The notes beneath the pieces are model-generated. The model worked only from the letters and a program-made list of their open reading frames with translations, did not search any database and was not told the DNA's origin. The position numbers were made by a program, and so were the translations under genes. Below, in pieces: positions 16,219 through 43,363 of a DNA stretch of 45,571 nt (within the stretch, counting starts at the first letter, position 1; the number at the start of each line of letters is the position of its first letter). The DNA is taken from assembly GCA_025360225.1 (NCBI GenBank), contig JANYCN010000016.1, positions 1 through 45,571 of the forward strand, written 5' to 3'. This DNA is from Actinomycetes bacterium. GTDB taxonomy: Bacteria; Actinomycetota; Thermoleophilia; Gaiellales; F1-60-MAGs149.

Positions 16219-17361
16219 TCAGCTCGAGCTGACGGGGACCTTGGCGTGACGGGAGAGGGTGCCGGCGAGACCGGGTCGACCGAGGCGGAAGCGATCCATC
16301 TCACCCGGAAGCGTGCGATCCTCGGCGAGGTCGGCGAGGTAGGAGCCGAGCGCTGGCGCGAACTTGAAGGCATGGCCCATGCAGCCGGCGCCGACGACGA
16401 TCGGCCCCTTGCGGTCGATGATGAAGTGGTCGTCGGGCGTCAACGTGATCACGCCGCACTCGGTCTGAAACGGCCCTGTGTGGAAGCCGGGAAAGTCCTC
16501 GCGCACCCGCTCGGCAAGCCGTTGTTCCTGCGGCGGGTCGAGCGGGCGAGCGGTGAGGTCTTGGAAGAACTTCGTGCGGTCGATCACGGCGAAACCCATC
16601 TTGTACCCCTGCCCCGGCCCGATCAGGCCATACATCGCCTCCTCAGCGCCGCGTGTGCGCTCCATCAGGCTCGGCCTCGTCGTGTCGTCGCCGAACGCGC
16701 CGCGGAAGTAGGAGACCTGCACGATGCCGGGCTGGAGCGGCAGCGCCATCCCGATCGGTGTCAGCAGCTCGTTCGCCCACGGGCCAGCGGTGACGACCGC
16801 GACGTCCGCGTCGATCCTGCGACGATCGGTGAAGACGCGGACACCGTTGGCGTGCGGTGCGAGGGTTACCGCGCGCTCCTTCGGTGAAACCTGGGCGCCG
16901 CGCGCGACTGCGAGCTTGACGCATGCCTTGAGGAAGGGGACGCAGAAGTTCACGCCGCCGTCGGGCTGGAACATCGCTGCCTCGCCGTAGCGAGGTCGCA
17001 GCTCGGGGAAGATCGTCGCGACGTCGGCGGCGCCGAGGTGGCGGTGGGGGATCCCTTCTGCAACGAACGCAGCCGTCATCGGGTCGACGACCGCGCCGAG
17101 ATGGAGGATGCCAAGGCGGCGGTACACCTCGATCCCGGTGCGCCGCTGCAGGTCGAGGTACAGCTCGAGCGAGCGCAGCGCGAGGCGGACGTCCTCGCGG
17201 GCGTGGTGCGACAGGCGGAAGCTCCGCAGCCCGAACCCGGAGCCGCCCTTCAGGTTCGGGATGCCAAAGCGGTCGAGCACCGTCACGTCGTGACCGCGCT
17301 CGGCCAGCGTCTGCGCCGTTGGCGCTCCCATCGCCCCGCATCCGATGACCACAACACGCAT
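16219..17361 (-). CDS. FAD-dependent secondary-amine oxidase, monomeric sarcosine oxidase-like
   Basis: A 380-residue member of the DAO/MSOX family. The dinucleotide-binding start is MRVVVIGCGAMGAPTAQTLA. SGFGLRSFRLSHH corresponds to the conserved Arg region of sarcosine oxidase, and Lys in GQGYKMGF to its O2-activating lysine. Cys302 in ECGVITLTPDDHFIID sits where MSOX attaches FAD covalently. GAGCMGHAFKFAPALG is the C-terminal FAD motif. The family oxidises an N-alkyl amino acid to amino acid plus aldehyde, with H2O2 from O2. ATG 17361 is chosen because the Rossmann motif begins at once. It is divergent from the GntR gene across a 32-bp palindrome, suggesting co-regulation with the microcompartment operon. 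No encapsulation peptide is obvious. Confidence 0.9.
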   Translation of the reverse strand: MRVVVIGCGAMGAPTAQTLAERGHDVTVLDRFGIPNLKGGSGFGLRSFRLSHHAREDVRLALRSLELYLDLQRRTGIEVYRRLGILHLGAVVDPMTAAFVAEGIPHRHLGAADVATIFPELRPRYGEAAMFQPDGGVNFCVPFLKACVKLAVARGAQVSPKERAVTLAPHANGVRVFTDRRRIDADVAVVTAGPWANELLTPIGMALPLQPGIVQVSYFRGAFGDDTTRPSLMERTRGAEEAMYGLIGPGQGYKMGFAVIDRTKFFQDLTARPLDPPQEQRLAERVREDFPGFHTGPFQTECGVITLTPDDHFIIDRKGPIVVGAGCMGHAFKFAPALGSYLADLAEDRTLPGEMDRFRLGRPGLAGTLSRHAKVPVSSS

Positions 17362-17371
17362 CTCGACGCCA

Positions 17372-17403
17372 ATCTTGACAAGTTGGATCCAACAAGTCAA
17401 GAT
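17372..17403. promoter_or_regulatory. 32-bp near-perfect palindrome, probable GntR operator
   Basis: The arms are ATCTTGAC and GTCAAGAT, surrounding a perfect GTTGGATCCAAC core; only the AA pairs between arm and core break the symmetry. It lies in the 73-base gap between the divergent starts at 17361 and 17435. This is the expected place for an autoregulating FCD/GntR repressor controlling both the flavoprotein and the microcompartment operon. Confidence 0.75.
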
Positions 17404-17434
17404 CCGCCTCAGACGTGCAACGCATGTATACGAC

Positions 17435-18127
17435 ATGGTCGATCTGAACACCGGTGGCAACGGCGACGACCTCGCCGGAACGGTGCACTCCGCGCTGCGC
17501 GACGCGATCGTTGGCGGACGCCTCTCGTCCGGCGCGCACATCAACCAGGAGACGATCGCCCGCGAGCTCGGCGTCTCGCGCACCCCGGTCCGCGAGGCGC
17601 TGCGCCTCCTCGAGCGCGACGGCCTCGTCCGCCTCGAGCCGAACCGTGGCGCGTTCGTCGCCGAGTTTGACGATCGCGACCTGTTCGAGATCTACGAGCT
17701 GCGCGAGCTGCTCGAGCCGTACGCCGCGGGAATCGCCTGCGCCGTCGCGACACGCGCAGACACCTCCGCCCTCCGTGACCTCGCCGAGCGGATCGAGGCG
17801 ACCTGGCAGGCCGAGCCCGAGGCGTCGTTCCTCGCGAACCGCGCCTTCCACGAGCGCCTCTGCGCTCCGTGCCAGAACGACCTGCTGATGCACCTGCTCG
17901 GACAGGTGTGGTCGCAGCAGGCGGCGCTCAGGATCTTCACGCACTACGCCGCGGGTGGCGCTGCCTTCGCCGCACGTACCAACAGCCAGCACCGCGAGAT
18001 CATCGAGGCATACGCGTCGCGCGAAGCCGCCACCGTCCGGGAGCTGGTGCGCTCCCACATCGCCGAGGCCCACGAGGCCACGGTCAAGCTCGTCGCCGAC
18101 ATCGCTCGCCCAGAGGAGGTCGCCTGA
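17435..18127 (+). CDS. GntR-family transcriptional regulator, FCD subfamily
   Basis: 230 residues. The N-terminal winged HTH contains LRDAIVGGRLSSGAHINQET, LGVSRTPVREALRLLERDG and VRLEPNRGAFVAEF. The C-terminal all-helical FCD ligand domain has DLFEIYELRELLEPYAA, NRAFHERLC and the His residues expected to coordinate a metal (SQHREIIEAY). FCD regulators sense organic acids, amino acids or related metabolites. ATG 17435 is used; the longer upstream frame runs back through the palindrome. It is the first gene of the operon and overlaps nothing; the next ATG is one base after its stop. It probably represses its own operon until an amine-pathway metabolite is present. Confidence 0.92.
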   Translation: MVDLNTGGNGDDLAGTVHSALRDAIVGGRLSSGAHINQETIARELGVSRTPVREALRLLERDGLVRLEPNRGAFVAEFDDRDLFEIYELRELLEPYAAGIACAVATRADTSALRDLAERIEATWQAEPEASFLANRAFHERLCAPCQNDLLMHLLGQVWSQQAALRIFTHYAAGGAAFAARTNSQHREIIEAYASREAATVRELVRSHIAEAHEATVKLVADIARPEEVA

Positions 18128-18128
18128 C

Positions 18129-19082
18129 ATGTGCGGCATCGCAGGAATCCAGCTCCGCCACGGCGGGCCAATCGGCAGCCATCTCGTGAAGATGTGCCAG
18201 GCGATGCGCCACCGCGGGTTCGACTCGACCGGGTTCGCCCTCTACGGCGACCCCGACCCGACGCGCCTGATCCTCCGGCTGCGCTTCCCCGATGTGTCGA
18301 CCTGGGTTGCGGGCACCGATGCGATCATCGCCGGCGTCCGCGAGCTCGGCGGCGACCAGCACTCCGAGCACGGCGTCGACGACGCGGTCGGCGCTCCGGA
18401 TCGCTTCGTGCGCCTGCAGGTGCGCTACACGGGCGACATCCGACGGCTCGCGGTGATGGTCGACGAGGTCGCGCCGGGCGTCGAGCTGCAGTCGATCGGG
18501 CACTCGCTCGAGATCATCAAGGACGCCGGCGACGCCGAGATGGTCGACGCGCGCCACCACGTGAGCGCGTTCCAGGGCAGCCACGGCCTCGGTCACGTAC
18601 GGCTCGCGACGGAGTCGATCGTCAGCGTCGCGTACGGCCACCCGTTCTGGGCCGAGCCCTTCCCGGACGTGTCGATCGTTCACAACGGCCAGCTGACGAA
18701 CTACTTCACGCTGCGCCGCCTGCTTGAGCAGGACGGGTTCCGTTTCCAGACCGGCAACGACTCTGAGCTGATCGCGGTCTACCTGGCGGACAAGATGTCG
18801 CGCGGACAGACGTTCTACGAGGCGCTGAAGGACTCCGTCTACGAGCTCGACGGCTGCTTCGCGTACCTGCTCTCGATGCCCGACCGCATCGGCTCCGCGA
18901 AGGACATGTTCGCGATCAAGTCGATCGTCGTCGCGAACATCGGCGGCGATGTTGCGATGGCGACCGAGGAGCAGGCGATCCGCGCCGTGTACACCGAGGA
19001 GCTCGATGACACCCAGCACCCCGACCCGCGGTCGGTGTTCGTCTGGGAGCGCGACGGGCGCGTCCTGCAGGAGATCGTATGA
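18129..19082 (+). CDS. class II glutamine amidotransferase-like subunit (MgsA/GlxB-type)
   Basis: A 317-residue Ntn-type amidotransferase. Processing of Met would expose Cys2 (MCGIAGIQLRHGG). RHRGFDSTGFALYGD, GHVRLATESIVSVAYGHPFW and SIVHNGQLTNYFTLRR are the family motifs. In N-methylglutamate synthase (MgsABC) the homologous subunit is the amido-donor-hydrolysing part; in bacterial GltB it is domain 1. It overlaps the next gene by ATGA, so 1:1 synthesis with the GXGXG subunit is likely. The adjacent glutamyl-amide synthetase suggests the substrate is a gamma-glutamyl amide rather than glutamine itself (inference). Confidence 0.9.
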   Translation: MCGIAGIQLRHGGPIGSHLVKMCQAMRHRGFDSTGFALYGDPDPTRLILRLRFPDVSTWVAGTDAIIAGVRELGGDQHSEHGVDDAVGAPDRFVRLQVRYTGDIRRLAVMVDEVAPGVELQSIGHSLEIIKDAGDAEMVDARHHVSAFQGSHGLGHVRLATESIVSVAYGHPFWAEPFPDVSIVHNGQLTNYFTLRRLLEQDGFRFQTGNDSELIAVYLADKMSRGQTFYEALKDSVYELDGCFAYLLSMPDRIGSAKDMFAIKSIVVANIGGDVAMATEEQAIRAVYTEELDDTQHPDPRSVFVWERDGRVLQEIV

Positions 19083-19780
19083 GCCAGAGCGCGACGGCCG
19101 AGCTCGTCCTCGACGCCGACGACGGGCATCGTCTGAACCGGCGCATGCGTGACGCGATCGACGCGGGAACGCGTGAGATCCGCGTCGTCAACCCGCGCAG
19201 CCGCCACAACCTCGGTGTCGGCCAGCACGGCCCAGGCACGATCCGCTTCGACGGCTCGGTTGGCTACTACTGTGGCGGGCTGAACAACGGCGCGGAGATC
19301 ATCGTCTCGCGCAGCGCGGGCTGGGGAACCGGCGAGGCGATGTCGTCTGGCCGGATCGAGATCGGCGGCACCTGTGCTCTCGGCACCGGCGCCTCGATGC
19401 GTGGCGGCACGATCGTCGTGCGTGGCAACTGCGGTCCCCGGACGGCAGCAAACATGAAGGGCGGCACGCTGATCGTCGAGGGCGCCGTTGGCTACCTCGC
19501 CGGCTTCATGACGCACGCCGGCGACCTGATCGTCTGTGGCGACGCCGGTGAGGCGCTCGGCGACTCGCTCTGGGCGGGGAACATCTGGGTTGCGGGGAAG
19601 ATCGCAGGCCTCGGTGCTGATGCTGTCGTCGTCGAGCCGACCGACGAGGAGTCTGCTCGCATCCATGGACTGCTCGCCGCCGAGGGGATCGACGGCACGT
19701 TCACGTTCAAGAAGGTCGTCGCAGAGCGCAAGCTCTGGTACTTCGACGCCCGCGACCCGGAGGCCTGGCTGAAGGTATGA
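19079..19780 (+). CDS. GXGXG-domain subunit (MgsB/GlxC, GltB domain-3-like)
   Basis: 233 residues forming the right-handed beta-helix seen at the C-terminus of glutamate synthase alpha subunits. Repeated Gly-rich turns are visible: GSVGYYCGGLNNG, GTCALGTGASMRGG, GNCGPRTAANMKGG and GAVGYLAGFMTHAG. It has no catalytic residues of its own and is expected to hold the amidotransferase and FMN subunits together and help form the ammonia or amine tunnel. It overlaps both neighbours by four bases. The C-terminal 45 residues (FTFKKVVAERKLWYFDARD) are typical of the stand-alone version. Confidence 0.92.
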   Translation: MSQSATAELVLDADDGHRLNRRMRDAIDAGTREIRVVNPRSRHNLGVGQHGPGTIRFDGSVGYYCGGLNNGAEIIVSRSAGWGTGEAMSSGRIEIGGTCALGTGASMRGGTIVVRGNCGPRTAANMKGGTLIVEGAVGYLAGFMTHAGDLIVCGDAGEALGDSLWAGNIWVAGKIAGLGADAVVVEPTDEESARIHGLLAAEGIDGTFTFKKVVAERKLWYFDARDPEAWLKV

Positions 19781-21117
19781 CCGACCACGGCTACACCCAG
19801 GGACGGTCCCACATCTGGACGTCCGACACGATCCGCGACATCCACGCGAAGGCCGAGCTCGGCCGCTACCAGATCCGTGGCTTCTCGACGTTTCGCCAGT
19901 TCCCGAGCTGGGACGACCTCGTCTTCCTGCCTGCCGTGATGACGCGGCTGCCGCTCGAGGGCTACCGCGAGCACTGCGAGACGAGGACGATCATCGGCGG
20001 CGGTAAGCCCGACCTCGTTGCCCGTCCGCTCGAGCTCGACATCCCGATCTACCTGACCTCGATGAGCTTCGGCGCGCTCGGCACGAACGCCAAGATAGCG
20101 CTCGGTAAAGGCTTCTCGGCAGCGGGCTCGGCGAGCTCGACCGGCGAGGGTGGGATGCTCGAGGAGGAGCGGGCCGCCTCGACGAAGCTGATCTATCAGA
20201 TGACGCCGAGCCGCTACGGGCTCGACCTCGAGCACCTGCGCAAGGCGGACGCGATCGAGATCGCCCTCGGCCAGGGCGCGAAACCGGGCACGGGTGGTCT
20301 CCTGCTCGGCATGAAGGTGTCGGAGAAGGTGGCGAAGATGCGCACCCTGCCGATGGGTGTCGATCAGCGCTCGTGCGTGCGCCACCCTGACTTCCTCGGC
20401 GCGGATGACCTGCAGGTGAAGATCATCGAGCTGCGTGAGGCAACCGATTACCAGGTGCCGATCTTCCTGAAGCTCGCGGCCTGCCGCGTCGAGTACGACG
20501 TGAAGGTTGCGTGCAAGACGGGCTGCGACGCGATCCTGCTCGACGGCACGGAGGGAGCCACCGCCGCAGCGCCGGAGTACCAGCTGGACAACTGTGGGAT
20601 CCCGCTGATCGCGGCGGTGCGCACCGCCCGCCGGGCGATCGAGGACCTCGGGATGAGCGGCAAGATCCAGCTCGTCGTCTCGGGCGGCATCCGCAATGGC
20701 GTCGACGTCGCGAAGTGCCTCGCGCTCGGTGCTGACGCGGTCGCGATCGGCACGTCAGCGCTGATCGCGCTTGGCTGCAACTCGCCGCAGTACCTGGACG
20801 ACTATGCCGCCCTCGGCACCGCGCCTGGCGCATGCCATCACTGCCATACCGGGCGCTGCCCGGTCGGCATCACGACGCAGGATCCCGAGCTGGAGAAGCG
20901 CATCGACCCGGAGGTCGGTGGCGAGCGCGTGGCGAAGTTCCTGCGCGCGACGATGATGGAGTGCACCGGCGTCGCGAAGTCCGTCGGCAAGCGCAACGTG
21001 CACAACCTCGAGCCCGAGGACCTGCGAGCGACGTCGCTCGAGGCCTCGGCCTTCACCGGCGTTCCGCTCGCCGGCGTCGAGTGGACGGTTGGCCCACAGT
21101 ACCTCGGCGGCCGCTGA
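19777..21117 (+). CDS. glutamate synthase-like FMN/Fe-S subunit (MgsC/GlxD-type)
   Basis: 446 residues of the GltS FMN-dependent TIM barrel. SMSFGALGTNAKIALGKG, STGEGGMLEEE, QGAKPGTGGLL and VSGGIRNGVDVAKCLALGAD are the FMN and 2-oxoglutarate site motifs. Cys residues in CHHCHTGRCPVGITTQDP (about residues 352-360) would bind the 3Fe-4S cluster. It catalyses the reductive or transfer step that loads nitrogen onto a glutamate skeleton. With its two upstream partners it makes the three-subunit N-methylglutamate synthase architecture. No GltD-type small subunit is nearby, which argues against ordinary NADPH glutamate synthase. Confidence 0.92.
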   Translation: MTDHGYTQGRSHIWTSDTIRDIHAKAELGRYQIRGFSTFRQFPSWDDLVFLPAVMTRLPLEGYREHCETRTIIGGGKPDLVARPLELDIPIYLTSMSFGALGTNAKIALGKGFSAAGSASSTGEGGMLEEERAASTKLIYQMTPSRYGLDLEHLRKADAIEIALGQGAKPGTGGLLLGMKVSEKVAKMRTLPMGVDQRSCVRHPDFLGADDLQVKIIELREATDYQVPIFLKLAACRVEYDVKVACKTGCDAILLDGTEGATAAAPEYQLDNCGIPLIAAVRTARRAIEDLGMSGKIQLVVSGGIRNGVDVAKCLALGADAVAIGTSALIALGCNSPQYLDDYAALGTAPGACHHCHTGRCPVGITTQDPELEKRIDPEVGGERVAKFLRATMMECTGVAKSVGKRNVHNLEPEDLRATSLEASAFTGVPLAGVEWTVGPQYLGGR

Positions 21118-21118
21118 G

Positions 21119-22435
21119 ATGCACCTCGACCAGGACGCCGCCCGTCGCGCAGCCGAGCTCGTCTCCCTGCACGGCGTGCACACGGTCGAGTGCGCGTTCC
21201 CGGACACCTGGGGCGCCCTCCGCGGCAAGCGCATCCCGGCGAGCCAGTTCGCGAACGTTGCTGCTGGAGGGTTCGCGATCGCCAACGCGGCGTTCGTCTG
21301 GGACCCGCTCTGCGGCATCTTCGAGACCGCCTACACGAACCCGGACACGGGCTTCCCCGACATGATCGCCGTGCCGGATCTCGACACCTTCCGTCCGCTC
21401 ACCTGGCGCGATGGCGCTGCGGTCGTGATGTGCAACGAGCGCGAGGTGCACGGCTCGACGCCGATCGAGCTCGACCCGCGGCACGTGCTGCGGACGGCCG
21501 AGGGGATGCTTGCCCGCCACGGCTACACCGCGACGATCGCGACCGAGCTCGAGTTCTACCTCACCGATGCGCAGTGGAACCCGCTCTACCCCGACGTCCA
21601 GTGCTACTCGATCACCAAAGGGGCCGAGCTCGAGCACATCATGTCCGACATCCGCCGCGAGGTGGAGGCGTTCGGGATCGTCGTCGAGGCCTGCAACACC
21701 GAGTATGGGCCGGCCCAGATCGAGGTCAACCTGCGCTACGGCTCGCCGATGGAGGTCGCCGACAACACGGTGCTGTTCAAGTACGCCGTCAAGGAGATCG
21801 CCCGGCGCCACGGCACGCGGGCGACCTTCATGGCGAAGCCGTTCATGGGGCAGTCCGGTAACGGCACGCACCTGCACGTCTCGTTGCGCGACGCTGCGGG
21901 GCACAACGTCTTCGACGGCGACGAGCCGCTGATGATGCGCTGCGTTGCTGGCCTGCTCGCCCACCAGGTCGAGCTCGCCGGTGTCGGCAGTCCGAGCATC
22001 AACGCGTACCGGAGGTTCGAGGACTACTCCTTCGCGCCGACGTACGTCAACTGGGGCGGCGACAACCGCCAGGTAGCGATCCGAACCGTCACCGATCACG
22101 GTCCGGCGACGCGCATCGAGATCCGCACCGCGGCGGCGGACGCGAACCCGTACCTGCTTGCTGCTACCCAGCTCGCCGCGGTCGCCGACGCGCTCGACAC
22201 CGAGCATGCCCTGCCGCCGGCCTGTCGCGGCAACGGCTACGCGCCCCAGGACCGTCCGTTGCTGCCGCGGTCGCTGCAGGACGCGGTGCGGGCGATCGAG
22301 GCCGGCTCGCTGCTTCGTCGATCGTTCGGCGACGCGTTCGTTACGAACCTCACGCAGCTCCTGCAGCACGAGGTTGACGAGTTCTCCCGTCAGGTCACCG
22401 AGTGGGAGAAGACCCGCTACATGGAGGTCTCGTAA
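21119..22435 (+). CDS. glutamine synthetase-like gamma-glutamylamide synthetase
   Basis: A 438-residue GS-fold ATP-dependent ligase related to GMAS, PuuA and IpuC. It has an N-terminal beta-grasp domain. The catalytic barrel contains TELEFYLTDAQWNP, EYGPAQIEVNLRYG, KPFMGQSGNGTHLHVSL and VNWGGDNRQVAIR, and LRRSFGDAFV lies near the end. The non-ammonia GS relatives join an amine to the gamma-carboxyl of glutamate. ATG 21119 starts two bases after the upstream stop. The stop overlaps the BMC-P start (TAATG), coupling this enzyme directly to the shell genes. The amine substrate is not determinable by eye; methylamine, another alkylamine or an amino alcohol are candidates. Confidence 0.88.
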   Translation: MHLDQDAARRAAELVSLHGVHTVECAFPDTWGALRGKRIPASQFANVAAGGFAIANAAFVWDPLCGIFETAYTNPDTGFPDMIAVPDLDTFRPLTWRDGAAVVMCNEREVHGSTPIELDPRHVLRTAEGMLARHGYTATIATELEFYLTDAQWNPLYPDVQCYSITKGAELEHIMSDIRREVEAFGIVVEACNTEYGPAQIEVNLRYGSPMEVADNTVLFKYAVKEIARRHGTRATFMAKPFMGQSGNGTHLHVSLRDAAGHNVFDGDEPLMMRCVAGLLAHQVELAGVGSPSINAYRRFEDYSFAPTYVNWGGDNRQVAIRTVTDHGPATRIEIRTAAADANPYLLAATQLAAVADALDTEHALPPACRGNGYAPQDRPLLPRSLQDAVRAIEAGSLLRRSFGDAFVTNLTQLLQHEVDEFSRQVTEWEKTRYMEVS

Positions 22436-22734
22436 TGGATCTCTGCCGCGTTGTCGGCCAGGTGGTCGCGACGGTGAAGGACCCGGCGATGCGTGCGACC
22501 AAGCTGCTGCTGGTCGTGCCGTGTGACCCGGCCGGGAACGAGATCGGCCCGATGTTCGCCGCGACCGACACCGTCGGTGCGGGCGAGCACGAGCTGGTGC
22601 TCGTCGCACGTGGCTCGGCGGCGCGCGCCACGCAGCGCACCGCGGACAGCCCGATCGATGCCGCGATCGTCGGCATCGTCGACTCGCTCAGCGTGGACGG
22701 CCAGACGCCGTACTTCAAAGACCAGACCTCGTAA
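22435..22734 (+). CDS. BMC-P shell pentamer (EutN/CcmL family)
   Basis: 99 residues, the usual size for a microcompartment vertex protein. The pattern VVGQVVATVKDPAMRATKLLLV and the later DAAIVGIVDSLSV match EutN/CcmL pentamers. Five copies cap the vertices of the polyhedral shell. ATG 22435 overlaps the stop of the synthetase gene by one base. It is the only pentamer gene in the window. Confidence 0.95.
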   Translation: MDLCRVVGQVVATVKDPAMRATKLLLVVPCDPAGNEIGPMFAATDTVGAGEHELVLVARGSAARATQRTADSPIDAAIVGIVDSLSVDGQTPYFKDQTS

Positions 22735-22749
22735 CAAGGAGGAGCGGAA

Positions 22750-23070
22750 ATGGCACGACAACGGTTCGAGACGAACGGCATGCAGGCGCTCGGCATGGTC
22801 GAGACGCGCGGGCTCGTGGGCGCGATCGAGGCCGCCGACGCGATGGTGAAGGCCGCGAACGTGCGCCTCGTCGCGAAGGAGCAGATCGGTGGCGGGCTCG
22901 TCACGGTGATCGTGCGCGGCGACGTCGGTGCCGTGCGCGCCGCGACCGATGCGGGCGCCGAGGCGGCCGCGAAGGTCGGCGAGCTGCTCTCCGCGCACGT
23001 CATCCCGCGCCCGCACGAGGACGTCGAGGCGATCCTCCCGGGCTTCGTCGCTGAGGCCGCTACGGCCTGA
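22750..23070 (+). CDS. BMC-H shell hexamer
   Basis: 106 residues forming a single BMC domain (Pfam PF00936). [54 protein letters not shown] and [14 protein letters not shown] are the standard landmarks. The central pore loop is expected at the IGGG segment. A strong AAGGAGGAG ribosome site precedes it, fitting the need for far more hexamers than other parts. It is the only hexamer gene here. A non-canonical N-terminal [11 protein letters not shown] precedes the domain. Confidence 0.97.
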
Positions 23071-23072
23071 CG

Positions 23073-24377
23073 GTGAGCGACGACCTCGCACAGGCGATCG
23101 CCGGGGAGCTCGGCGGCTCGAGCGTGGCGCAGGCCGCGTCGCTGCCGGCCGTCCCGACCTCGGCGGTCGCCGTGCTGGGTGAGCTCGTCGGGTCAGCCGC
23201 CGCGACCGCAAGCCCGGTGGCGCTGCCGCCGGTCGGTCGGCTCTCGGCGTCCCGGCCCGGGGCGGGACGCACGACGGTCGCGGTGCTCGGTGACGAGGGC
23301 GTCGCTGCGGCGACGGCGGGGCACCTTGCGCTGCTCGGCTTCGACGTGCGCTGGTCCTCGCCGCGCGCCGCCGCGCTCGCGCCCTACGCGGCGGGCGTCG
23401 AGCTGGTCGGGCTCGGGACGGGGCACCCCGCGATCGTCGGGAGCATCGACGCCTGCGTCGCCGGGCGCGACCTCGTGCTGGTGTGCGCGCACGCGACCGA
23501 GCACGCCGCCTACGGCGCCTTCCTCTCGCCAGTGCTGGCCGACGGGCAGGTCGTCGTGCTGATGCCGGGCCGCACGGGGGGCGCGCTCGAGCTGCGCGAG
23601 GTGCTCCGCGCGCACTGCTGCCGCGCGCGGGTCGTCGTCGCGGAGACCGAGACGGCGGTCTACACGCCGGCCGGTCGTGGCCCGGGCCGGGTGGAGATCC
23701 TCGTCGAGAAGGAGTCCTTCCGCGCTGCCGCGTTGCCGGCCGCCGACAACGCGACCCTGCAGGCCGTCCTCGCCGGTCTCTACCCGCAGGTGACGATCGC
23801 CGAGAACGTGCTCGACACCTCGCTGAACAACGTCGGCGGCGTCGTACACCCGGCTGCGATGCTGCTGAGCTCGAGGGTGACGGAGGAGAGCGCTGCCGGC
23901 CAGCCACGCGTGTACTACGTCGACCAGGTGAACCGAACGGTCGCCGACCTCGTGATGGAGCCGCTCGATGCCGAGCGCGTTGCCGTCGGTCGTGCGCTCG
24001 GGCTGCGCACGGTGCTGACGTTCCGCGAGTGGAGCCTCGCCTGCTTCCACCACGCACGCGGCTCGATCCGCGAGACGGTGGCGTCGAACCCGTCCTACCT
24101 CGGGTTCGCGGCGCCGAAGGACCTGTTGGCGCTCGGCTTCGTCGACGACGAGGTGCCGAACTCGCTCGTCCCGCTCGCCGAGCTCGGACGCCTCGTCGGC
24201 GTCGCGACGCCGATGACGGACGCGCTGATCGATCTCGCGAGCGCGATGCTCGGCGTCGACTTCCGCCGAACCGGGCGCACGCTCGAGCGCCTCGGCCTCG
24301 GTGGCCTGGCGCCGGCGGCGCTCCTCGACCACGTCAACCTGGCGCGCCCTCGCGCGCCCGTCCCGGTGGCGCCATGA
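23073..24377 (+). CDS. opine (octopine/nopaline) dehydrogenase-like enzyme with N-terminal extension
   Basis: 434 residues from a GTG start. The C-terminal part matches the octopine/nopaline dehydrogenase helical domain. It has the catalytic-type His in NNVGGVVHPAAMLLSS, VYYVDQVNRTVADL, and an HARGSIRETVASNPSYLGF segment. The Rossmann start at about residue 65 is VAVLGDEGVAAATAGHLALL; its GxxGxA pattern lacks the second Gly of a normal GxGxxG. Family chemistry is NAD(P)-linked interconversion of an N-substituted amino acid with an amino acid plus carbonyl. Residues 1-16 (MSDDLAQAIAGELGGSS) form a short amphipathic helix and residues 17-65 an Ala/Pro-rich linker, resembling a cargo-encapsulation peptide. 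It is coupled to the aldehyde dehydrogenase by ATGA. Confidence 0.82.
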   Translation: MSDDLAQAIAGELGGSSVAQAASLPAVPTSAVAVLGELVGSAAATASPVALPPVGRLSASRPGAGRTTVAVLGDEGVAAATAGHLALLGFDVRWSSPRAAALAPYAAGVELVGLGTGHPAIVGSIDACVAGRDLVLVCAHATEHAAYGAFLSPVLADGQVVVLMPGRTGGALELREVLRAHCCRARVVVAETETAVYTPAGRGPGRVEILVEKESFRAAALPAADNATLQAVLAGLYPQVTIAENVLDTSLNNVGGVVHPAAMLLSSRVTEESAAGQPRVYYVDQVNRTVADLVMEPLDAERVAVGRALGLRTVLTFREWSLACFHHARGSIRETVASNPSYLGFAAPKDLLALGFVDDEVPNSLVPLAELGRLVGVATPMTDALIDLASAMLGVDFRRTGRTLERLGLGGLAPAALLDHVNLARPRAPVPVAP

Positions 24378-25969
24378 CCGAACCAGCACCCGTCCGCCAG
24401 GCGGCTGAGCTCGCCCTTGCCGCACACGAGGCCGCGATCCGCTGGGCCGACGCGACCCAGGAGGACGTCGATCGCGTCACCCAGGCGATGGCGCAGGCGG
24501 GACACGACAACGCCGCGCGCCTCGCCCAGATGGCATGGGAGGAGACCGGCTACGGCCGGGCCGACCACAAGACGTTCAAGAACATCTTCACGACGCTGCG
24601 CTACCTCGACGGCATCCGTCACATCCCGACGGTCGGCGTGATCGCGAGCGATCCTGCGCGCGGGATCGTCGAGATCGCCGAGCCGGTTGGCGTGATCGCG
24701 GGCCTCGTCCCCGTCACGAACCCGACCGCGACGACGCTCTTCTACGGGATCGCCGCGGTGCGCGCGCGCAACGCGATCGTGAACGCGCCGCACCCGCGCG
24801 CGGTGCGCACGATCGCGGAGACCGCGCGCGTCCTGGACGCCGCTGCGACCGCGGCGGGAGCTCCACCGAACCTCGTGACGGCGATGACGGAGGTGTCGAT
24901 CGAGGGCACGCAGGCGCTGATGGCGCACTACCGCACCGACCTCGTGCTCGCGACCGGGTCGCGGATCATGGTGCTCGCCGCGTACTCCTCCGGCAAGCCG
25001 ACGTACGCCGTCGGCCCGGGCAACTCGCCCTCCTACGTGCACCGCTCCGCGAAGGACCTCGGCGAGGCGGCGGCCGGGATCCTCGCGTCGAAGACGTTCG
25101 ACAACGGCACCGCCTGCGCGTCCGAGCAGGCCGTGATCGTCTGCCAGGAGGCGGCGGGCAGGCTGCGCGTCGAGCTCGAGCAGCGCGGCGCCTACTTCGC
25201 GAACGCCGAGGAGCAGGAGAAGCTCTCGAAGCTGCTGTTCCCGAAGGGCCCGGGGACCGCCTTCAACGTCGAGACGGTCGGCCAGTTCGCGACCCGGATC
25301 GCCGAGATGGCGGGGATCTCGGTGCCCGTCGGCACGCGCGCGCTCGTGGTCGCGCCGGCCGGCGTCGGGCGCGACCACACGCTCTCGCACGAGCTGCTCT
25401 GCCCGGTCCTGAAGTGGTACACCGTGCCAACGCTTGAGGAGGGCGTCGCGACCGCGACCGCGCTCCTGAAGTACGGTGGCGACGGGCACACGGCGGCGAT
25501 CTGGGCCGAGGACCAGACGGCGATCGCGCGCTACGCGCGGGTTCCGGCGTACCGCATCTGCGTGAACAGCCCGACGCTGTTCGGTGCGATGGGGTTCACG
25601 ACCGGTTTCGTGCCGTCGTTCACGCTCGGCACCGGCACGATCGGTGGCACGATCTCGTCCGACAACATCGGCCCGCAGCACCTGATCAACCGTAAACGCG
25701 TTGGCGTCGCGATCCGTGACTGGCGCGAGGCGGGCATCTCCCAGGATGCCGTGACCGCGCCGCAGGCCGCTCCCGGCTCCTCGACGGCGCACCTGCAGCT
25801 TCCGCCGCTTCCCCCCGAGCAGGCCGCCCTGATGGGCGAGACCGGCCTTACGGTCGCGGCGCTCACCCCGCCGTCGTCCGCCCATCCCCCGCGGGCCGCA
25901 GCGCCGTCTGCCCCGCTTGACGTCAAGGCGATCGTCCGCGCGGCGATCGAGGAGGTCATCTCGCGATGA
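24374..25969 (+). CDS. CoA-acylating aldehyde dehydrogenase (PduP/EutE-like) with C-terminal encapsulation peptide
   Basis: A 531-residue aldehyde dehydrogenase. The nucleophile Cys248 lies in [15 protein letters not shown], the form seen in CoA-acylating EutE/PduP/AdhE enzymes. [17 protein letters not shown] and [11 protein letters not shown] are also typical. It should turn an aldehyde plus CoA and NAD+ into acyl-CoA and NADH. After the catalytic domain, a linker rich in Pro, Ala and Ser (about residues 465-512) leads to a terminal helix, [18 protein letters not shown]. This is the classic layout of a BMC-targeting peptide. ATG 24374 overlaps the upstream stop and the stop overlaps the BMC-T start. 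It is the core lumenal enzyme of this metabolosome. Confidence 0.93.
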
Positions 25970-26589
25970 GCAGTTCGGACTTCTCGATGCGGGCGTTCGT
26001 CTTCATCGACTCGATGCAGCCCGAGTTCGCGGCCTACGTTGGCGCCACGGTGCAGGGCTCGCCACCCGTTGCCGGGATGGCTGAGCTGTGGATCGAGGTC
26101 GCGCCCGCAAACGAGGCGTTTCGGCTGATGGACGTCGCGTTGAAGGCCGCGAACGTCAGCCCGGCGACGCAGTTCATCGAGCGCGAGTTTGGCCTGCTCG
26201 AGCTGCACTCGTTCAGTCAGTCGGAGGTACGCGCGGCGGCGGACGCGATCTTCCAGGAGACGGGGCTCTCCGAGGACGATCGCGTGCGTCCAACGATCGC
26301 CTCGACGCAGGTGATCACGAACGTCGACCCGTTCCAGGCGCAGCTGATCAACAAGATGCGCCGTGGCTCGCTCCTCGTGCCGGGCCAGACGCTGCTGATC
26401 ATGGAGGTCGAGCCCGCCGCGTACATCTCCCTCGCCGCGAACGAGGCGGAGAAGGCGGCGAACATCTCCCAGATCTACATCACCAACGTCGGCCGGTTCG
26501 GACGTTACTACGCGGCTGGCACGGAGTCGGAGATCGAGGCGGCACGCGCCTCGGCGGTGGCCGCGATCGAGGCCTCTGCGGCGCGCTGA
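25966..26589 (+). CDS. BMC-T tandem-domain shell trimer
   Basis: 207 residues made of two BMC domains (about 1-100 and 105-207), forming pseudohexameric trimers. In domain 1, WIEVAPANEAFRLMDVALKAANV is visible. In domain 2, LLIMEVEPAAYISLAANEAEKAANI is the repeat counterpart. There is no cysteine anywhere, so it cannot carry the Fe-S cluster of PduT-type trimers; it more likely forms a gated or open pore for larger metabolites. It is translationally coupled to the aldehyde dehydrogenase (ATGA) and to the small ORF that follows. Confidence 0.93.
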   Translation: MSSSDFSMRAFVFIDSMQPEFAAYVGATVQGSPPVAGMAELWIEVAPANEAFRLMDVALKAANVSPATQFIEREFGLLELHSFSQSEVRAAADAIFQETGLSEDDRVRPTIASTQVITNVDPFQAQLINKMRRGSLLVPGQTLLIMEVEPAAYISLAANEAEKAANISQIYITNVGRFGRYYAAGTESEIEAARASAVAAIEASAAR

Positions 26590-26771
26590 TGGCAAACAGC
26601 GTGATCGATTCGGACCGCGCCGCTCGCCTCGTCGAGCAGTCCCGCGTGCGCGTGATCGTGCGGCGCACGCTGTGGGAGGAGTACCCAGGCCACGCCTCGG
26701 CGCGCACCGTCGAGCAGGTCTGCGTGCTCGTCTTCGCCCGCCTCGGGATCGAGCTCGACCGGCGACGGTAG
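26589..26771 (+). CDS. 60-residue protein of unknown function ending the BMC operon
   Basis: The ATG shares its A with the BMC-T stop (TGATG), strongly suggesting translation. Residues 8-26 (SDRAARLVEQSRVRVIVRR) look like a basic amphipathic helix. They are followed by LWEEYPGHASARTVEQVCV and a short LVFARLGIELDRRR tail. I do not recognise a family. Size, coupling and helix suggest a cargo adaptor or small accessory factor of the shell, but this is only inference. Confidence 0.65.
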   Translation: MANSVIDSDRAARLVEQSRVRVIVRRTLWEEYPGHASARTVEQVCVLVFARLGIELDRRR

Positions 26772-26835: not shown

Positions 26836-28122
26836 TTGCGCTACCGTTCGAACGTGTTCACCCCGATTGGCGATGTCCCGAGGTTCGCCGAGCCGTTCCT
26901 CAACACGCTGCTCGAAGTCGAGCCTGCGGTCATTCTGGAAGGTCCGAGGGGATCTGGTAAATCGACCTTGCTTCGTGCGCTTGCGTCGGGCCGTGGCGGC
27001 AGGATCGTCGACCTCGACGACGAGGCCGTCTTGCGTCTCGTGCGCGAGGACGTCTCGCTCGCGCTGGCGTCCGATGGTCTCGTCGCGATCGACGAGTTCC
27101 ACCGCGCGCCAGAGGTGCTGTCGTTCGTGAAGCGCGTCGTCGACCGCGAGGGGGGCGCTGGGCGCTTTCTCCTTGCGGGGTCCGTGAGCTCGTTCCTCCT
27201 ACCATCAGGGACGGAGACCCTTACCGGGCGTGCCCACCGCGTTGCACTGCTCCCTCTTGCTGCCGCAGAGGTTGCCGGCGGGTACGGACGCTGGTTGGCC
27301 GACCTTCTTGCGATGCGCGAGCCCGTGAACGTCCAGACGGAGACCGAGCGCTCGGAGGTCTTCGATGTCGTCGTTGCCGGTGGCTATCCGGCCGCGCTTC
27401 GGCGTGCGACGGGCCAGCGTTCGAGGTGGTTCACGAGCTACCTGAGCACCGTGGTTGATCGCGACGTCCCCGACCTCGTCAGGGTTCGTCGAGACGGGGT
27501 GCTGGCGTCCCTCTACCGTCTGATCGCCCACCACACGGGGTCGGTGGTGCACAACGTCGAGCTCGCCCGGAGGCTTGATGTCTCACAGCCATCGCTGGCG
27601 TCGCATCGGCGCCTCCTTGAGCAGCTCTACCTGACGCACGAGCTCCCTGCGTGGTCGGTTGGGATCTCCGCGAAGCCTGCGCACAGGGCAAAGGTGCACG
27701 TCGTTGACACGGGTCTTGCCGCGGCCGTGGTAGGCCTGTCTGCCCCGCGTCTCGCGATGGAGGCGGTCGGTGGTGCGTTCCTCGAGTCGTTCGTCGTGAA
27801 CGAGCTGAAACGCCAGGCGTCGGCGATCGATGAGACGCTTGCCTTCGCGCACTTCCGCGATCGATCTGGCGTCGAGGTCGACCTGGTGATCGAGCGGCCC
27901 GACGGATCGGCGATCGCGATCGAGGTGAAGTCCGCGCGGGCCGCTAGCCAGGGCGATGCCAACGGGCTGCGCTTTGTCCGTGACCGGCTGGGCGACCGCC
28001 TGATCGCCGCTGTGGTCTTTCACACGGGCCCCCTGACGGCGCGCCTCGGCGATCGGATCTGGGCGGTTCCCGTTGCTGCCTTGTGGGAGACGCCTCCCGC
28101 GACGCGGCTCAGACCGTCGTGA
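26836..28122 (+). CDS. AAA-type ATPase with DUF4143 C-terminal domain
   Basis: 428 residues. The Walker A motif is ILEGPRGSGKSTLLRAL; the Walker B-like segment is GLVAIDEFHRAPEVLSFVK, followed by RFLLAGSV. The DUF4143 part includes GGYPAALRR, YLSTVVDRDVPDL, SQPSLASHRRLLEQLY and a PD-(D/E)xK-like VDLVIERPDGSAIAIEVK. Such proteins are abundant and often horizontally mobile; proposed roles include defence or toxin-antitoxin-like functions, unproven. TTG 26836 is the earliest start; a GTG at 26854 (VFTPIGDVPRF) is equally plausible. No functional link to the BMC operon is apparent. Confidence 0.88.
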   Translation: MRYRSNVFTPIGDVPRFAEPFLNTLLEVEPAVILEGPRGSGKSTLLRALASGRGGRIVDLDDEAVLRLVREDVSLALASDGLVAIDEFHRAPEVLSFVKRVVDREGGAGRFLLAGSVSSFLLPSGTETLTGRAHRVALLPLAAAEVAGGYGRWLADLLAMREPVNVQTETERSEVFDVVVAGGYPAALRRATGQRSRWFTSYLSTVVDRDVPDLVRVRRDGVLASLYRLIAHHTGSVVHNVELARRLDVSQPSLASHRRLLEQLYLTHELPAWSVGISAKPAHRAKVHVVDTGLAAAVVGLSAPRLAMEAVGGAFLESFVVNELKRQASAIDETLAFAHFRDRSGVEVDLVIERPDGSAIAIEVKSARAASQGDANGLRFVRDRLGDRLIAAVVFHTGPLTARLGDRIWAVPVAALWETPPATRLRPS

Positions 28123-28155
28123 TGGTGATCACGACGCGCCAGTTCTTCGCCCTCC

Positions 28156-28439
28156 CGGCCGCGGTCGCGTTCGAGGCGACCGGCTCGGTCGCGCGCACCG
28201 TGTCGCGCTGCTGCGCTTTCGCAGGGAGACACGCCAGAGGCCTCCGGTTCGTCCGAGACAGGCTCGGCGAACGGCTGAGCGCCGGGGTGCTGTTCGACAC
28301 CGATCCGCTGACCGCACTTCTCCTTGAGCGAGTCTGGGTCGTGCCCGTGGCGGCACTCTCGTTCGGGACATCCTTCCAGCCGGAGTCGCCTCTGCACGTG
28401 TGGAAGCCGTCCCGGATCCCGGACATACGCACCCCCTGA
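28156..28439 (+). pseudogene. decayed duplicate of a DUF4143 ATPase C-terminus
   Basis: The frame reads GLRFVRDRLGERLSAGVLF, then TDPLTALLLERVWVVPVAAL. This mirrors GLRFVRDRLGDRLIAAVVF and TGPLTARLGDRIWAVPVAAL at the end of the intact ATPase just upstream. Similarity extends back to about 28156, with divergence around the nuclease-like motif. Walker motifs and the rest of the protein are missing. It is a leftover of a tandem copy or of an older related gene. Bases 28123-28155 hold nothing else recognisable. Confidence 0.75.
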
Positions 28440-28496
28440 GCCCGGATCCCCCGTCGCGGGGAGGCGACGCTGCCGCTCGTGCACGAGGCTTGGAGG

Positions 28497-28832
28497 ATGA
28501 CCGAGGCCTTCGCGTTCCCGCAGTGCCCGTTCCGCGACGCCACGCACTGCGTGGTCGACCGCAGCTCGCTCGCGCGCGCCGTCGCGGGCACCGTGTGGCC
28601 GTCGGCGCGGCGCGCCGAGCGCGTGGAGCTGACGGACGAAGGCATCGAGGCCTGGACGCTCGTCGGCCGCACACGTCTCCGCTGGGAGGAGCTCACCGGC
28701 GTCCGTGAGGTCGGCGGCGTGCTCCGGCGGCGCGCGCTCCTCGCCGAGGGGCCGGCAGGGAGGATCGAGATCGCGCCGATCCTGCCGGGGTTCGCGACGA
28801 TCGAGGCGCGCCTGCGCTCCGCCTGCGCCTGA
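28497..28832 (+). CDS. small hypothetical protein, possibly bacterial PH-like domain
   Basis: 111 residues from ATG 28497; a GTG at 28479 is an alternative with a GGGGAGG stretch upstream. The alternation of short strands, VELTDEGIEAWTLVGRTRLR, WEELTGVREVGGV and AEGPAGRIEIAP, followed by a terminal helix, is typical of bacterial PH-like domains. The family is not recognised with certainty. It contains two Cys near the N-terminus (QCPFRDATHC). Confidence 0.55.
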   Translation: MTEAFAFPQCPFRDATHCVVDRSSLARAVAGTVWPSARRAERVELTDEGIEAWTLVGRTRLRWEELTGVREVGGVLRRRALLAEGPAGRIEIAPILPGFATIEARLRSACA

Positions 28833-28899
28833 TCGTGGCGCCAGCCGCCTTCGGTCCTGCGTGACACGCTTGGTGAACTGAACGGTTGGTCGCGGGGGT

Positions 28900-29424
28900 G
28901 TTGCTCCATGCCGGTCGCCGCGCGCAGCACCCGGCTCTCGCGCGCGAGCAGACGGGTACCGTCGAGCGCGAGACCGGCATCGGTCGGGTAGCGCACATCG
29001 GCTTCCACGACGGTCGAGTCGATCCGCACCGTACGACCCTGAAAACGCGTCTCGCGTGTCGCCTTGACGATCACGACGCGGCTGATCTCGCTGATCGGCT
29101 CCGCACCAAGACGACGGACGAGCTTGCGGATCGTCGACTCGTCCGGCACCGCCCGGTCAACGCCGATCCGACAGAACCGCCGCAGCGAGAACGAGTCCGG
29201 ACGAACACCTCGATCGGGATCGTCGGCCGACCATGCATGAGCGCCGTCGGCCAGCGCGCCAGCCACAACGCCCGGAACGGCGCAAGGATCGCCGGATCGT
29301 CCAAAAGCGCGTCCAACGCCGCCATCTCCACCGGCACCCGCAGCACCCCCTCCGGCAGCAGCGCGTCCCACAGCGTCTCCGTTTGCTCGCCCCGCAACCG
29401 CAGCATCACACGCTTCCCGATCAT
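28900..29424 (-). pseudogene. broken IS5/ISNCY-like DDE transposase
   Basis: On the minus strand, MIGKRVMLRLRGEQTETLW through RPTIPIEVFV matches the start of a DDE transposase. The continuation lies in another frame: DSFSLRRFCRIGVDRAVPDE, TIRKLVRRLG, and TVRIDSTVVEADVRYPTD. About 25 residues expected between the two parts are missing, so there is an internal deletion plus frameshift near 29200. The frame loses similarity after about 28900, before the rest of the catalytic domain. It is a non-functional remnant. Confidence 0.8.
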
Positions 29425-29513
29425 CACGAATCCCAGAATTTCCAGGGAAATCATAGAAAACCGGTCGGACGGGCAACCATCACGAACCCCGACTATTTCC
29501 GGGGGAAGTAGTC
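29423..29513. repeat. two imperfect direct repeats, each with an internal dyad, beside the transposase remnant
   Basis: The two copies begin ATCACGAA at 29423 and 29479. The first contains ATTTCC-AG-GGAAAT (29438-29451). The second forms a hairpin at 29491-29513 with a 10-bp stem (one G-T pair) around GGG. They may be the end of the insertion element or a terminator-like structure formed from it. Confidence 0.5.
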
Positions 29514-29580
29514 TAGGACTGTACGGCACGTTCGATCCGTCGGTGGTGCGGAACCGCGCTCGGCGGGGTAACATCGCGGC

Positions 29581-30348
29581 ATGCGAACGACGGACGGGTT
29601 GGAGCGGTGCACACGGCGGTTCCGCTGGCCGGTCGTCGTCGCGGCGCTGCTCGTGATCCCCGCCGTCGCCCTCGACGCAACGGCCGGGCCGCGCGGCCCG
29701 ATCGCTGCCTGGGCCGATGCGTTGAACTGGGCGATCTGGCTCACGTTTGCCGCCGAGTACGTCGTGTCGCTCGCGGTCGCTCCAGATCGCTGGCACTGGT
29801 TTCGATCGCACCCGTTCGACCTCGTGATCGTCGTTGTGACCCCGCCGTTCGCACCGGCGCTGGTCCAGGGCCTGCGGGTGGGGCGACTCCTACGAGCGCT
29901 CCGGCTCCTACGCCTCGCCCGGACGGCCCGAGTTGGGCATGAGCTGTTCAGCGGCCAGGGGTTGCAATGGGCGGCGACCGTATCGGCGTTGACCGTGGTC
30001 GGTGGTGGTGTCGCGTTCACGGAGGTCGAGTCGGGGCAGCATCCGAGCGCCCTCGACGGTCTCTGGTGGGCGGTCACGACGATGACGACGATCGGGTACG
30101 GCGATGTCACACCGCGCACAACCGTCGGGCGGATCCTCGCCGTGTTCGTGATGATCGTCGGGATCGGCTCCGTCGCTCTGTTGACCGGCGCGATCGCCGA
30201 ACGCTTCGTGCGAGCAGCGTCCCCGCCCTCCGCGAACGATCCGCCCACGCTGACCCAGCTCGCACTGATCCACGCGCAGCTCGTGATGATCGCCGAGCGT
30301 CTCAGCGCGATCGAGGCGGGGCGGCCCGAGCGACCGACGCCCGGCTGA
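29581..30348 (+). CDS. voltage-gated-type potassium channel
   Basis: A 255-residue six-helix K+ channel. Helices are at about 17-35, 48-68, 78-95, an Arg-rich S4-like segment (GLRVGRLLRALRLLRLARTA), S5 near 130-145 and S6 near 185-208. The selectivity filter is TMTTIGYGDVTP. The C-terminal tail is short and likely helical (LTQLALIHAQLVMIAERLSA), with no RCK/TrkA domain. The size and arrangement match prokaryotic KvAP-like channels. It stands alone between the transposase remnant and the polysaccharide cluster. Confidence 0.93.
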   Translation: MRTTDGLERCTRRFRWPVVVAALLVIPAVALDATAGPRGPIAAWADALNWAIWLTFAAEYVVSLAVAPDRWHWFRSHPFDLVIVVVTPPFAPALVQGLRVGRLLRALRLLRLARTARVGHELFSGQGLQWAATVSALTVVGGGVAFTEVESGQHPSALDGLWWAVTTMTTIGYGDVTPRTTVGRILAVFVMIVGIGSVALLTGAIAERFVRAASPPSANDPPTLTQLALIHAQLVMIAERLSAIEAGRPERPTPG

Positions 30349-30386
30349 CGCGAGACGCTGCTCCGAGCGCCGCTACCCTGTCGTCC

Positions 30387-31460
30387 GTGGGCGCGCAGAT
30401 CAAGGGCCTCGTGTTGTCGGGAGGCGCGGGCACCCGCCTGCGGCCGATCACGTACACGCGCGCGAAGCAGCTCGTCCCGATCGCTGGTCGGCCGGTGCTC
30501 TTCTACTGCCTCGACGCGCTCGCTGCGGCTGGCATCACCGAGGTCGGGATCGTCGTCGGCGACACCGAGGCTGAGATCCGCGCGGCGGTTGGCGACGGCG
30601 GCGCTTTCGGGCTGACGGTGACGTTCATCCGCCAGCACGCCCCCCTCGGTCTCGCGCACGCCGTCGTCGTGGCGCGCGAGTTCCTTGGAGACGACCCGTT
30701 CTGCATGTTCCTCGGCGACAACCTGCTCGTCGATGGCGTCACCGCGTTCGTCGACGGCTTCCGCGCTGGCTCGAGCGATGCGACGATCCTCCTGCAGCGC
30801 GTCGCCGACCCGTCCTCCTACGGCGTCGCCGTGCTCGAGGACGGACGGGTGACTCGGCTCGTTGAGAAGCCAGCCGACCCGCCGTCCGACCTCGCGCTGG
30901 TCGGCGTGTACCTGTTCCGCTCGTCGATCCACGAGGTGATCGCCGGGCTCGCGCCGTCGGCGCGGGGTGAGCTCGAGATCACCGACGCCATCCAGGGTCT
31001 CGTCGACCGCGGGCTGCGCGTCGAGCCGCGCCTCGTCACGGGCTGGTGGAAGGACACCGGCCAGCTACACGACGTGCTGGAGGCGAACCGGCTCGTGCTC
31101 GACACGATCGAGACGCGCATCGACGGCGAGCTGATCGATGCCCGTGTCGAGGGCCGAGTGATCGTCGAGGCGGGCGCCGTGCTCGAGCGCTGTCACGTCC
31201 GCGGCCCCGTCTTCATCGGCGCTGGCGCGCGCATCAGCGACGCGTTCGTCGGCCCGTACACCGCGATCTCGCGCGACGTGGTGATCCGCCGAGCGGAGAT
31301 CGAGCACTCGATCGTGCTCGAGCGCGCCCGGATCCTCGACCTCGACTCACGGCTCGAGGCTTCGCTGATCGGTCGTGACGTCGAGATCGTTCGCGCCGAG
31401 GGGCGTCCCGCCGCACACCGCATGCTCGTCGGCGACAACAGCCGGATCGAGATCCTGTGA
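30387..31460 (+). CDS. rmlA: glucose-1-phosphate thymidylyltransferase, long form
   Basis: 357 residues from GTG 30387. The nucleotidyltransferase signature is LSGGAGTRLRPITYTRAKQL, followed by FLGDNLLVDG and LVEKPADPPSDLALVGVYLF. Residues about 245-357 form a left-handed beta-helix extension (GPVFIGAGARISDAFVGPY), as in actinobacterial and archaeal long-form enzymes. It makes dTDP-glucose from dTTP and glucose-1-phosphate, the first step to dTDP-rhamnose. The order rmlA-rmlC-rmlD-rmlB follows with overlapping starts, so one operon is clear. Confidence 0.93.
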   Translation: MGAQIKGLVLSGGAGTRLRPITYTRAKQLVPIAGRPVLFYCLDALAAAGITEVGIVVGDTEAEIRAAVGDGGAFGLTVTFIRQHAPLGLAHAVVVAREFLGDDPFCMFLGDNLLVDGVTAFVDGFRAGSSDATILLQRVADPSSYGVAVLEDGRVTRLVEKPADPPSDLALVGVYLFRSSIHEVIAGLAPSARGELEITDAIQGLVDRGLRVEPRLVTGWWKDTGQLHDVLEANRLVLDTIETRIDGELIDARVEGRVIVEAGAVLERCHVRGPVFIGAGARISDAFVGPYTAISRDVVIRRAEIEHSIVLERARILDLDSRLEASLIGRDVEIVRAEGRPAAHRMLVGDNSRIEIL

Positions 31461-36668: not shown

Positions 36669-36669
36669 C

Positions 36670-39017: not shown

Positions 39018-39019
39018 GC

Positions 39020-39847: not shown

Positions 39848-39858
39848 CGGCGGGCAGT

Positions 39859-41133: not shown

Positions 41134-41235
41134 CGTCCCTGTCTGATGATCGCAGGAGGAGGCGGTCGAGCCGGCAGGATGGCGACCGGCGGCCGGTACG
41201 ATTCGGCCTGTCGGACGGCTCCCGAGAGGTCTCAC

Positions 41236-42165: not shown

Positions 42166-42174
42166 GGCCGCGCG

Positions 42175-43326: not shown

Positions 43327-43363
43327 CCGAGAGCGGCGTCCGCCGCGCGGCTGATCGGCGACA

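Follow-up and report, generated by a model that had tools for sequence, protein, structure and literature searches.

What does an enzyme of opine-dehydrogenase type do in an operon that encodes the shell of a microcompartment (BMC)? The question is raised by a 434-residue protein with a GTG start (hereafter ODH), encoded on contig JANYCN010000016.1 of an Actinomycetes bacterium; the window analysed here is a stretch of 45,571 nucleotides from this contig. The initial annotation placed the gene between those for a BMC-H shell protein and an aldehyde dehydrogenase (ALDH), and the reading frames bear this out: both flank it directly, the BMC-H gene ending 3 bases before it and the start of the ALDH gene overlapping the ODH stop (Table 1). 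Our reading, to which we give a probability of roughly 60%, is that ODH is packed in a primary-amine metabolosome and oxidises an N-alkylglutamate to glutamate and an aldehyde, the window copy being cofactor-altered or inactive.

Table 1. Features of the ODH locus in the window, with the tailed malate dehydrogenases of related loci
Feature	Coordinates	Strand	Remarks
Monomeric-sarcosine-oxidase-like FAD enzyme	16219..17361	-	divergent from GntR; 9U3E/1EL5 E~1e-34, full length
GntR-type regulator	17345..18127	+	likely start ~17435; named from sequence; same-place homologue in G003 and G059
mgsA-like class II glutamine amidotransferase subunit	18129..19082	+	PF13522/PF13537; starts MCGIAG
mgsB-like GXGXG subunit	19079..19780	+	PF01493 3e-9
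mgsC-like glutamate-synthase FMN domain subunit	19777..21117	+	PF01645 6e-90
gmaS-like gamma-glutamylamide synthetase, GS fold	21119..22435	+	PF00120 5e-84; longest ORF from 21089
BMC-P (EutN/CcmL) vertex protein	22435..22734	+	PF03319 5e-28
BMC-H shell protein	22750..23070	+	PF00936 4e-30
ODH, opine-dehydrogenase-fold protein	23073..24377	+	Rossmann domain ~66-240, Octopine_DH helical domain 243-393, His259
ODH N-terminal extension	23073..23270	+	EP-like helix 3-14, possible second helix 29-38, disordered Ala/Pro linker (AlphaFold)
Rebuilt dinucleotide loop of ODH	23289..23312	+	residues 73-80 GDEGVAAA replacing G(A/G)G(H/N)GGxA
CoA-acylating ALDH, C-terminal EP-like helix (18 residues)	24374..25969	+	PF00171; 5J78 6e-115
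BMC-T, CcmP-like	25966..26589	+	NF053796 CcmP 1.4e-72, below equivalog cut-off
Small conserved operon protein, 61 aa	26586..26771	+	same place in G003 (71% identical) and G059 (48%)
Tailed malate dehydrogenases	L044 13641-14753; L009 5474-6583; L008 13045-13965 and beyond

The octopine/nopaline-dehydrogenase-type C-terminal domain that had been read from the ODH sequence is confirmed by profile, sequence and structure comparisons. Residues 243-393 match PF02317 (Octopine_DH) with an E-value of 2e-29 and a score of 102.9 bits (cut-off 30), and a phmmer search aligns residues 68-417 with N-(1-D-carboxylethyl)-L-norvaline dehydrogenase (CENDH; PDB ID: 1BG6; E=1.4e-58). The AlphaFold model of ODH has a mean pLDDT of 88, with residues 68-423 above 90 nearly throughout, and its closest solved structure in Foldseek is again 1BG6 (E 3e-31; TM 0.89 by target length). 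Together with a match to 3C7D (E 1e-17), this identifies the two-domain fold of CENDH and OcDH. His259, in the motif GGVVHPAAMLL to which attention had been drawn at the outset, aligns with CENDH His202 and OcDH His212 and is a histidine of the catalytic type. The N-terminal helix and the Ala/Pro linker both lie outside the modelled core and, as had been proposed, are not needed for the fold.

The operon (17345-26771, forward strand) has the order GntR-mgsABC-gmaS-EutN-BMC-H-ODH-ALDH-BMC-T and closes with a 61-residue protein. Its BMC-H, BMC-T and BMC-P proteins, acylating ALDH and EP-like peptides resemble those of metabolosome BMCs, and some related loci share PduL, an RnfC/PduS-like protein and EutJ with them as well. 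The ALDH is of the acylating type, with best matches to 5J78 and to TIGR02518 (447 bits, below the cut-off of that model). BMC-T falls just under the Pfam BMC cut-off and is recognised by the CcmP model, itself below cut-off; likewise, the gmaS-like protein matches TIGR03105 and GGputSyn below their cut-offs. No PTAC, alcohol dehydrogenase or other NADH sink is encoded among the operon ORFs. The mgsABC and gmaS homologues, in one operon and in the order mgsABC-gmaS, recall the N-methylglutamate pathway of Methylobacterium extorquens, where these enzymes convert methylamine to N-methylglutamate, whose oxidation then yields glutamate and formaldehyde (PMC6237917). The window locus differs from that pathway in adding shell proteins and an acylating ALDH. 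The operon ORFs include no mgdABCD, the heterotetramer of sarcosine-oxidase type; the one homologue seen, beside GntR, is of the monomeric type. The dehydrogenase step of the N-methylglutamate route appears to be taken by an unrelated enzyme of opine-dehydrogenase type.

A scan of genome contigs with a single ODH found no relatives; a scan with an alignment of five ODHs recovered them, giving 80 loci from 84,980 genomes. Ten genomes, spread over Actinomycetota, Bacillota, Desulfobacterota and Myxococcota, combine ODH with mgsABC, gmaS and shell genes: the window genome, G003 and G059 (all Thermoleophilia), a Desulfovibrio MAG, a Myxococcota MAG, two Acidimicrobiia and three Bacillota. One of the Bacillota genomes is a MAG of Thermincola ferriacetica, which places an ODH-BMC locus in a named species. 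The operon order of the window is the same in G003 (ODH 72% identical) and G059 (44%), and is rearranged in the Acidimicrobiia, Desulfovibrio, the Bacillota including Thermincola, and the Myxococcota MAG. Recurrence on this scale, in ten genomes and four phyla, is not due to chance. In the tree the ten BMC-linked ODHs and three relatives form a 13-member clade (support 100/100), indicating a single origin. The three relatives, which have no shell genes on their contigs, are G144/L053, whose ODH adjoins gmaS and mgsAB, and L049 and L050, short contigs on which no gmaS is visible. Homologues outside the clade, as listed in the scan, have lower identity and none of the BMC, mgs or gmaS context, and plasmid searches returned distant relatives only. 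Gene content and evolution together give good support to a real and conserved microcompartment whose candidate signature enzyme is of a new class; the chemistry of this enzyme we infer below.

Two of the more distant contexts are recorded here. The ODH of L049 (595-6283; Deltaproteobacteria/Myxococcota MAG) lies beside a pyrrolysine cluster comprising the C-terminal domain of pylS, pylB, pylC and pylD, each over its NCBIfam cut-off, a further pointer to amine metabolism. In family f16 of the actinobacterial phylum (L039-L042), the gene after an unrelated ODH homologue always encodes a conserved protein of ~540 residues (MKKILGASIGSCVHVAGV), cobalamin-binding in appearance.

In the pathway that we propose, gmaS would ligate the amine to glutamate using ATP and mgsABC would transfer the alkylamine to 2-oxoglutarate, these GS/GOGAT-like enzymes thereby building N-alkylglutamate outside or at the shell. 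ODH, packed into the metabolosome via its N-terminal peptide, would convert this to glutamate and an aldehyde, probably a short one such as acetaldehyde, which the acylating ALDH would turn into an acyl-CoA. The net effect would be a PLP-free transamination of the amine, similar to saccharopine metabolism, with the aldehyde confined. Of the two directions put forward in the initial annotation, the oxidative one is well supported at the level of the family, because mgsABC-gmaS makes N-methylglutamate and the aldehyde-consuming partners vary; for the window copy itself it is doubtful. Among these partners, the ALDH of L052 exceeds the cut-off of TIGR02518 (EutH_ACDH), an acetaldehyde-dehydrogenase model, and stands in a locus that also encodes PduL (PTAC) and an RnfC/PduS-like protein; L048 has an EutE/PduP-type ALDH over its cut-off; and the non-BMC locus of G144 (L014) carries a tungsten aldehyde:ferredoxin oxidoreductase on the same strand, kilobases from ODH. 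The ALDH matches favour acetaldehyde and hence ethylamine as the substrate, with ethanolamine and others as further candidates. It counts against this pathway that known opine dehydrogenases act at a carbon adjoining a carboxylate, and that we know of no documented case in which this family releases a plain aldehyde.

Two further proteins were seen in these loci. L048 encodes an amidotransferase of class I, by eye similar to gamma-glutamyl hydrolases, beside the BMC genes and upstream of mgsABC (17880-18617), and L052 (8753-9553) and L051 (13660-14562) share a BMC-locus protein of ~266 residues that has an N-terminus like an EP and matches no Pfam family.

Comparison of active-site residues sets the clade apart. 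At the position of CENDH 292 and OcDH Arg324, all 72 distinct non-clade homologues have arginine and none of the 13 clade members does; the window ODH has glycine. In OcDH this NADH-sensing arginine binds the pyrophosphate of NADH, on which ground we dropped a reading of its absence as a lost keto-acid carboxylate site (PMC2924402). Most of the clade, the window ODH included, has glutamate at the position of CENDH Asp297; L044 and L045 have aspartate. Because the arginine is lost clade-wide, Asp297 is mostly replaced by glutamate and the catalytic histidine is invariant, the BMC ODH clade forms, judged by these residues, a subfamily of its own in which domain closure or cofactor contacts are altered.

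The window ODH and that of G003 depart further. Their glycine loop reads GDEGVA, against GAGHGG or GGGNGG in other clade members; the loop of L048 (GAGNSG) has one glycine changed to serine, and those of the remaining members are essentially intact. The PA loop of both has become HA, with the proline of (V/A)PA lost. The glycine-loop changes (Gly to Glu, Val and Ala) and the lost proline fall at positions that 26 or more of 27 homologues keep unchanged. Of 70 columns on which 90% or more of 27 other homologues agree, eight are changed in both window and G003, four of them in the glycine and PA loops, compared with 0-2 in four control pairs. The branch leading to the pair (1.33) is far longer than its neighbours. 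Nonetheless, dN/dS between the two is ~0.23 for the Rossmann domain and ~0.29 for the C domain; as both domains are constrained, the window ODH has been kept for some role, and pseudogene decay was rejected on these ratios. A sequencing error behind the odd loop was rejected as well, the loop being identical in G003. In this lineage, the NAD-binding loop has evidently been rebuilt under purifying selection. The glycine loop for NAD(P) of the PF02317 family is absent from the window ODH, and since the PA-loop proline has also changed, NAD use should not be assumed for it. The initial annotation did not note this change, with which the window copy may have lost normal NAD(P) use. There is real doubt about its catalytic state: this lineage would have either changed its cofactor mode or given up the oxidation, possibly to its sarcosine-oxidase-like neighbour.

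The second of these options leads to a tentative but serious alternative, which we rate a little short of even: that the window and G003 ODHs are no longer dehydrogenases but cargo scaffolds or metabolite binders, and that cytosolic oxidation of N-alkylglutamate, or of an N-methyl amino acid, falls to the flavoenzyme. The loss of both loops and the long stem branch speak for it, and the N-terminal extension of each has two helices. At E<=1e-5, neither genome encodes a second ODH homologue. Among the loci compared, the sarcosine-oxidase-like gene, divergent from GntR, is confined to the same two, although their sister relationship means that its correlation with the loop counts only once. The monomeric-sarcosine-oxidase family oxidises N-methyl amino acids, and the flavoenzyme could therefore have taken over the oxidation; the protein itself falls below the cut-offs of the soxA_mon and N-methyltryptophan oxidase models. 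As loop change and flavoenzyme make up one evolutionary event, the case for such a takeover is no more than suggestive. Against it, both ODHs keep the catalytic histidine and the PGRTGGALE motif, loops of the form GxxGxxA are able to bind nucleotides in some other Rossmann enzymes, and a cytosolic flavoenzyme would set aldehyde and H2O2 free outside the shell.

The other direction put forward for ODH, in which it would replace an alcohol dehydrogenase and recycle the NADH of ALDH reductively inside the shell by forming an opine-like product, is improbable. It is the direction best known for opine dehydrogenases, and it would suit an operon that encodes neither PTAC nor alcohol or malate dehydrogenase, in a genome (97% complete) in which the malate dehydrogenase of related loci was not found. 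However, those loci have other candidates for handling NADH, either malate dehydrogenase (L044, G003 and G059) or RnfC/PduS-like proteins, a reductive ODH would leave no aldehyde-making enzyme, and the ATP-driven gmaS and mgsABC steps provide N-alkylglutamate. Because of these NADH-handling candidates and this ATP-driven route, oxidation is the better reading, and the reductive proposal is weak. The malate dehydrogenases carried by actinobacterial relatives, of which the L044 copy exceeds the TIGR01763 cut-off, lie downstream of BMC-T and, in L044, G003 and G059, bear a C-terminal, helical-looking tail; they could possibly form a malate-based NADH sink in the microcompartment.

The pathway proposed above places ODH in the shell as cargo. 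Residues 1-66 of the AlphaFold model lie outside the fold and comprise a helix at 3-14, followed by a second helix (29-38) and linkers modelled with low confidence. A targeting-type N-terminal helix is found in 10 of 10 BMC-linked ODHs and in none of the three non-BMC clade members; the extensions open with a short helix-type sequence, for example FDAIVRAVVRELGG, MDFNALVDRIVEELEAR or EIASIVGSVINELQK, and several ALDHs, that of the window included, have a similar stretch at the C-terminus. These termini fit the published description of encapsulation peptides as terminal amphipathic helices of ~18 residues on a disordered linker (PMC12339742). Hydrophobic-moment tests of the N-terminal helices were mostly non-significant for peptides taken singly, and the case for targeting therefore rests on the phylogenetic pattern, which supports ODH as a consistent BMC cargo candidate across the family and indirectly suggests its encapsulation in the shell. 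That ODH is instead a bystander of shared regulation, the aldehyde coming from another enzyme, is unlikely: its operon position does vary (in G451 it follows MDH and precedes a permease) and G059 has a second BMC locus with mgsABC and no ODH, but the helix is present in all BMC-linked ODHs and in none of the three non-BMC relatives, ODH is retained with mgsABC-gmaS in four phyla, and no other aldehyde-forming candidate was seen to be constant to these BMC loci.

This second locus of G059 (L017 7610-14600; C20, ~25.8-32.8 kb) lies ~10 kb from the first and encodes mgsABC, a betaine-aldehyde-dehydrogenase-type ALDH, BMC-H, two small proteins, EutN and BMC-T; it lacks an acylating ALDH as well as ODH. 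Its ALDH has a long N-terminal extension with repeats like GLPAPAIAGLSRG.

Set against known systems, ODH shares with CENDH (PF02317) the whole fold, the Octopine_DH domain and the catalytic histidine; it differs in the targeting-type extension and Arg292 and Asp297 replacements of the BMC clade, and in the glycine loop lost in the window and G003. The closest actinobacterial parallel is the RMM microcompartment of Mycobacterium and Rhodococcus, which also has a GntR regulator and handles an amino-alcohol and an amine-derived aldehyde; however, the short-chain dehydrogenase, phosphotransferase and aminotransferase described for RMM loci (PMC4207490) are absent among the window operon ORFs. In comparison with published metabolosomes, the signature enzyme of opine-dehydrogenase type and the GS/GOGAT-like activation of the amine stand out. 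A BMC catalogue describes, in the parts available, many metabolosomes (MIC2-7, MUF2-3 and others) with an ALDH and no obvious signature enzyme, and its main text mentions neither opine dehydrogenase nor glutamine synthetase, though its supplementary tables may list such loci under a type name (PMC8217296). Literature text searches gave no report of an opine dehydrogenase or a gamma-glutamylmethylamide route in a microcompartment. For ALDH metabolosomes of this kind, ODH offers a concrete aldehyde-making candidate with a testable substrate class and a defined subfamily. If the reading is right, this would be the first BMC enzyme of opine-dehydrogenase type that could be found, and the logic of the N-methylglutamate pathway would reach beyond methylamine. 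We put at even odds the wider proposition of a widespread class of PLP- and B12-free amine metabolosomes in four phyla, in which GS/GOGAT-like enzymes make N-alkylglutamate, an encapsulated ODH releases a confined aldehyde, and the NAD site of the window copy, rebuilt or lost under selection, reflects either a new mode of cofactor use or a signature enzyme that has become a pseudoenzyme. The window and G003, set beside the other ODHs, offer a natural before-and-after comparison of cofactor-site loss in one type of organelle.

Just downstream of the BMC operon, the window carries overlapping multi-frame fragments of an apparent decayed transposase (28020-29811). The dTDP-sugar, glycosyltransferase, asparagine-synthase-like and polymer-export genes beyond it (30348-45432) probably belong to a polysaccharide cluster and have no link with the BMC.
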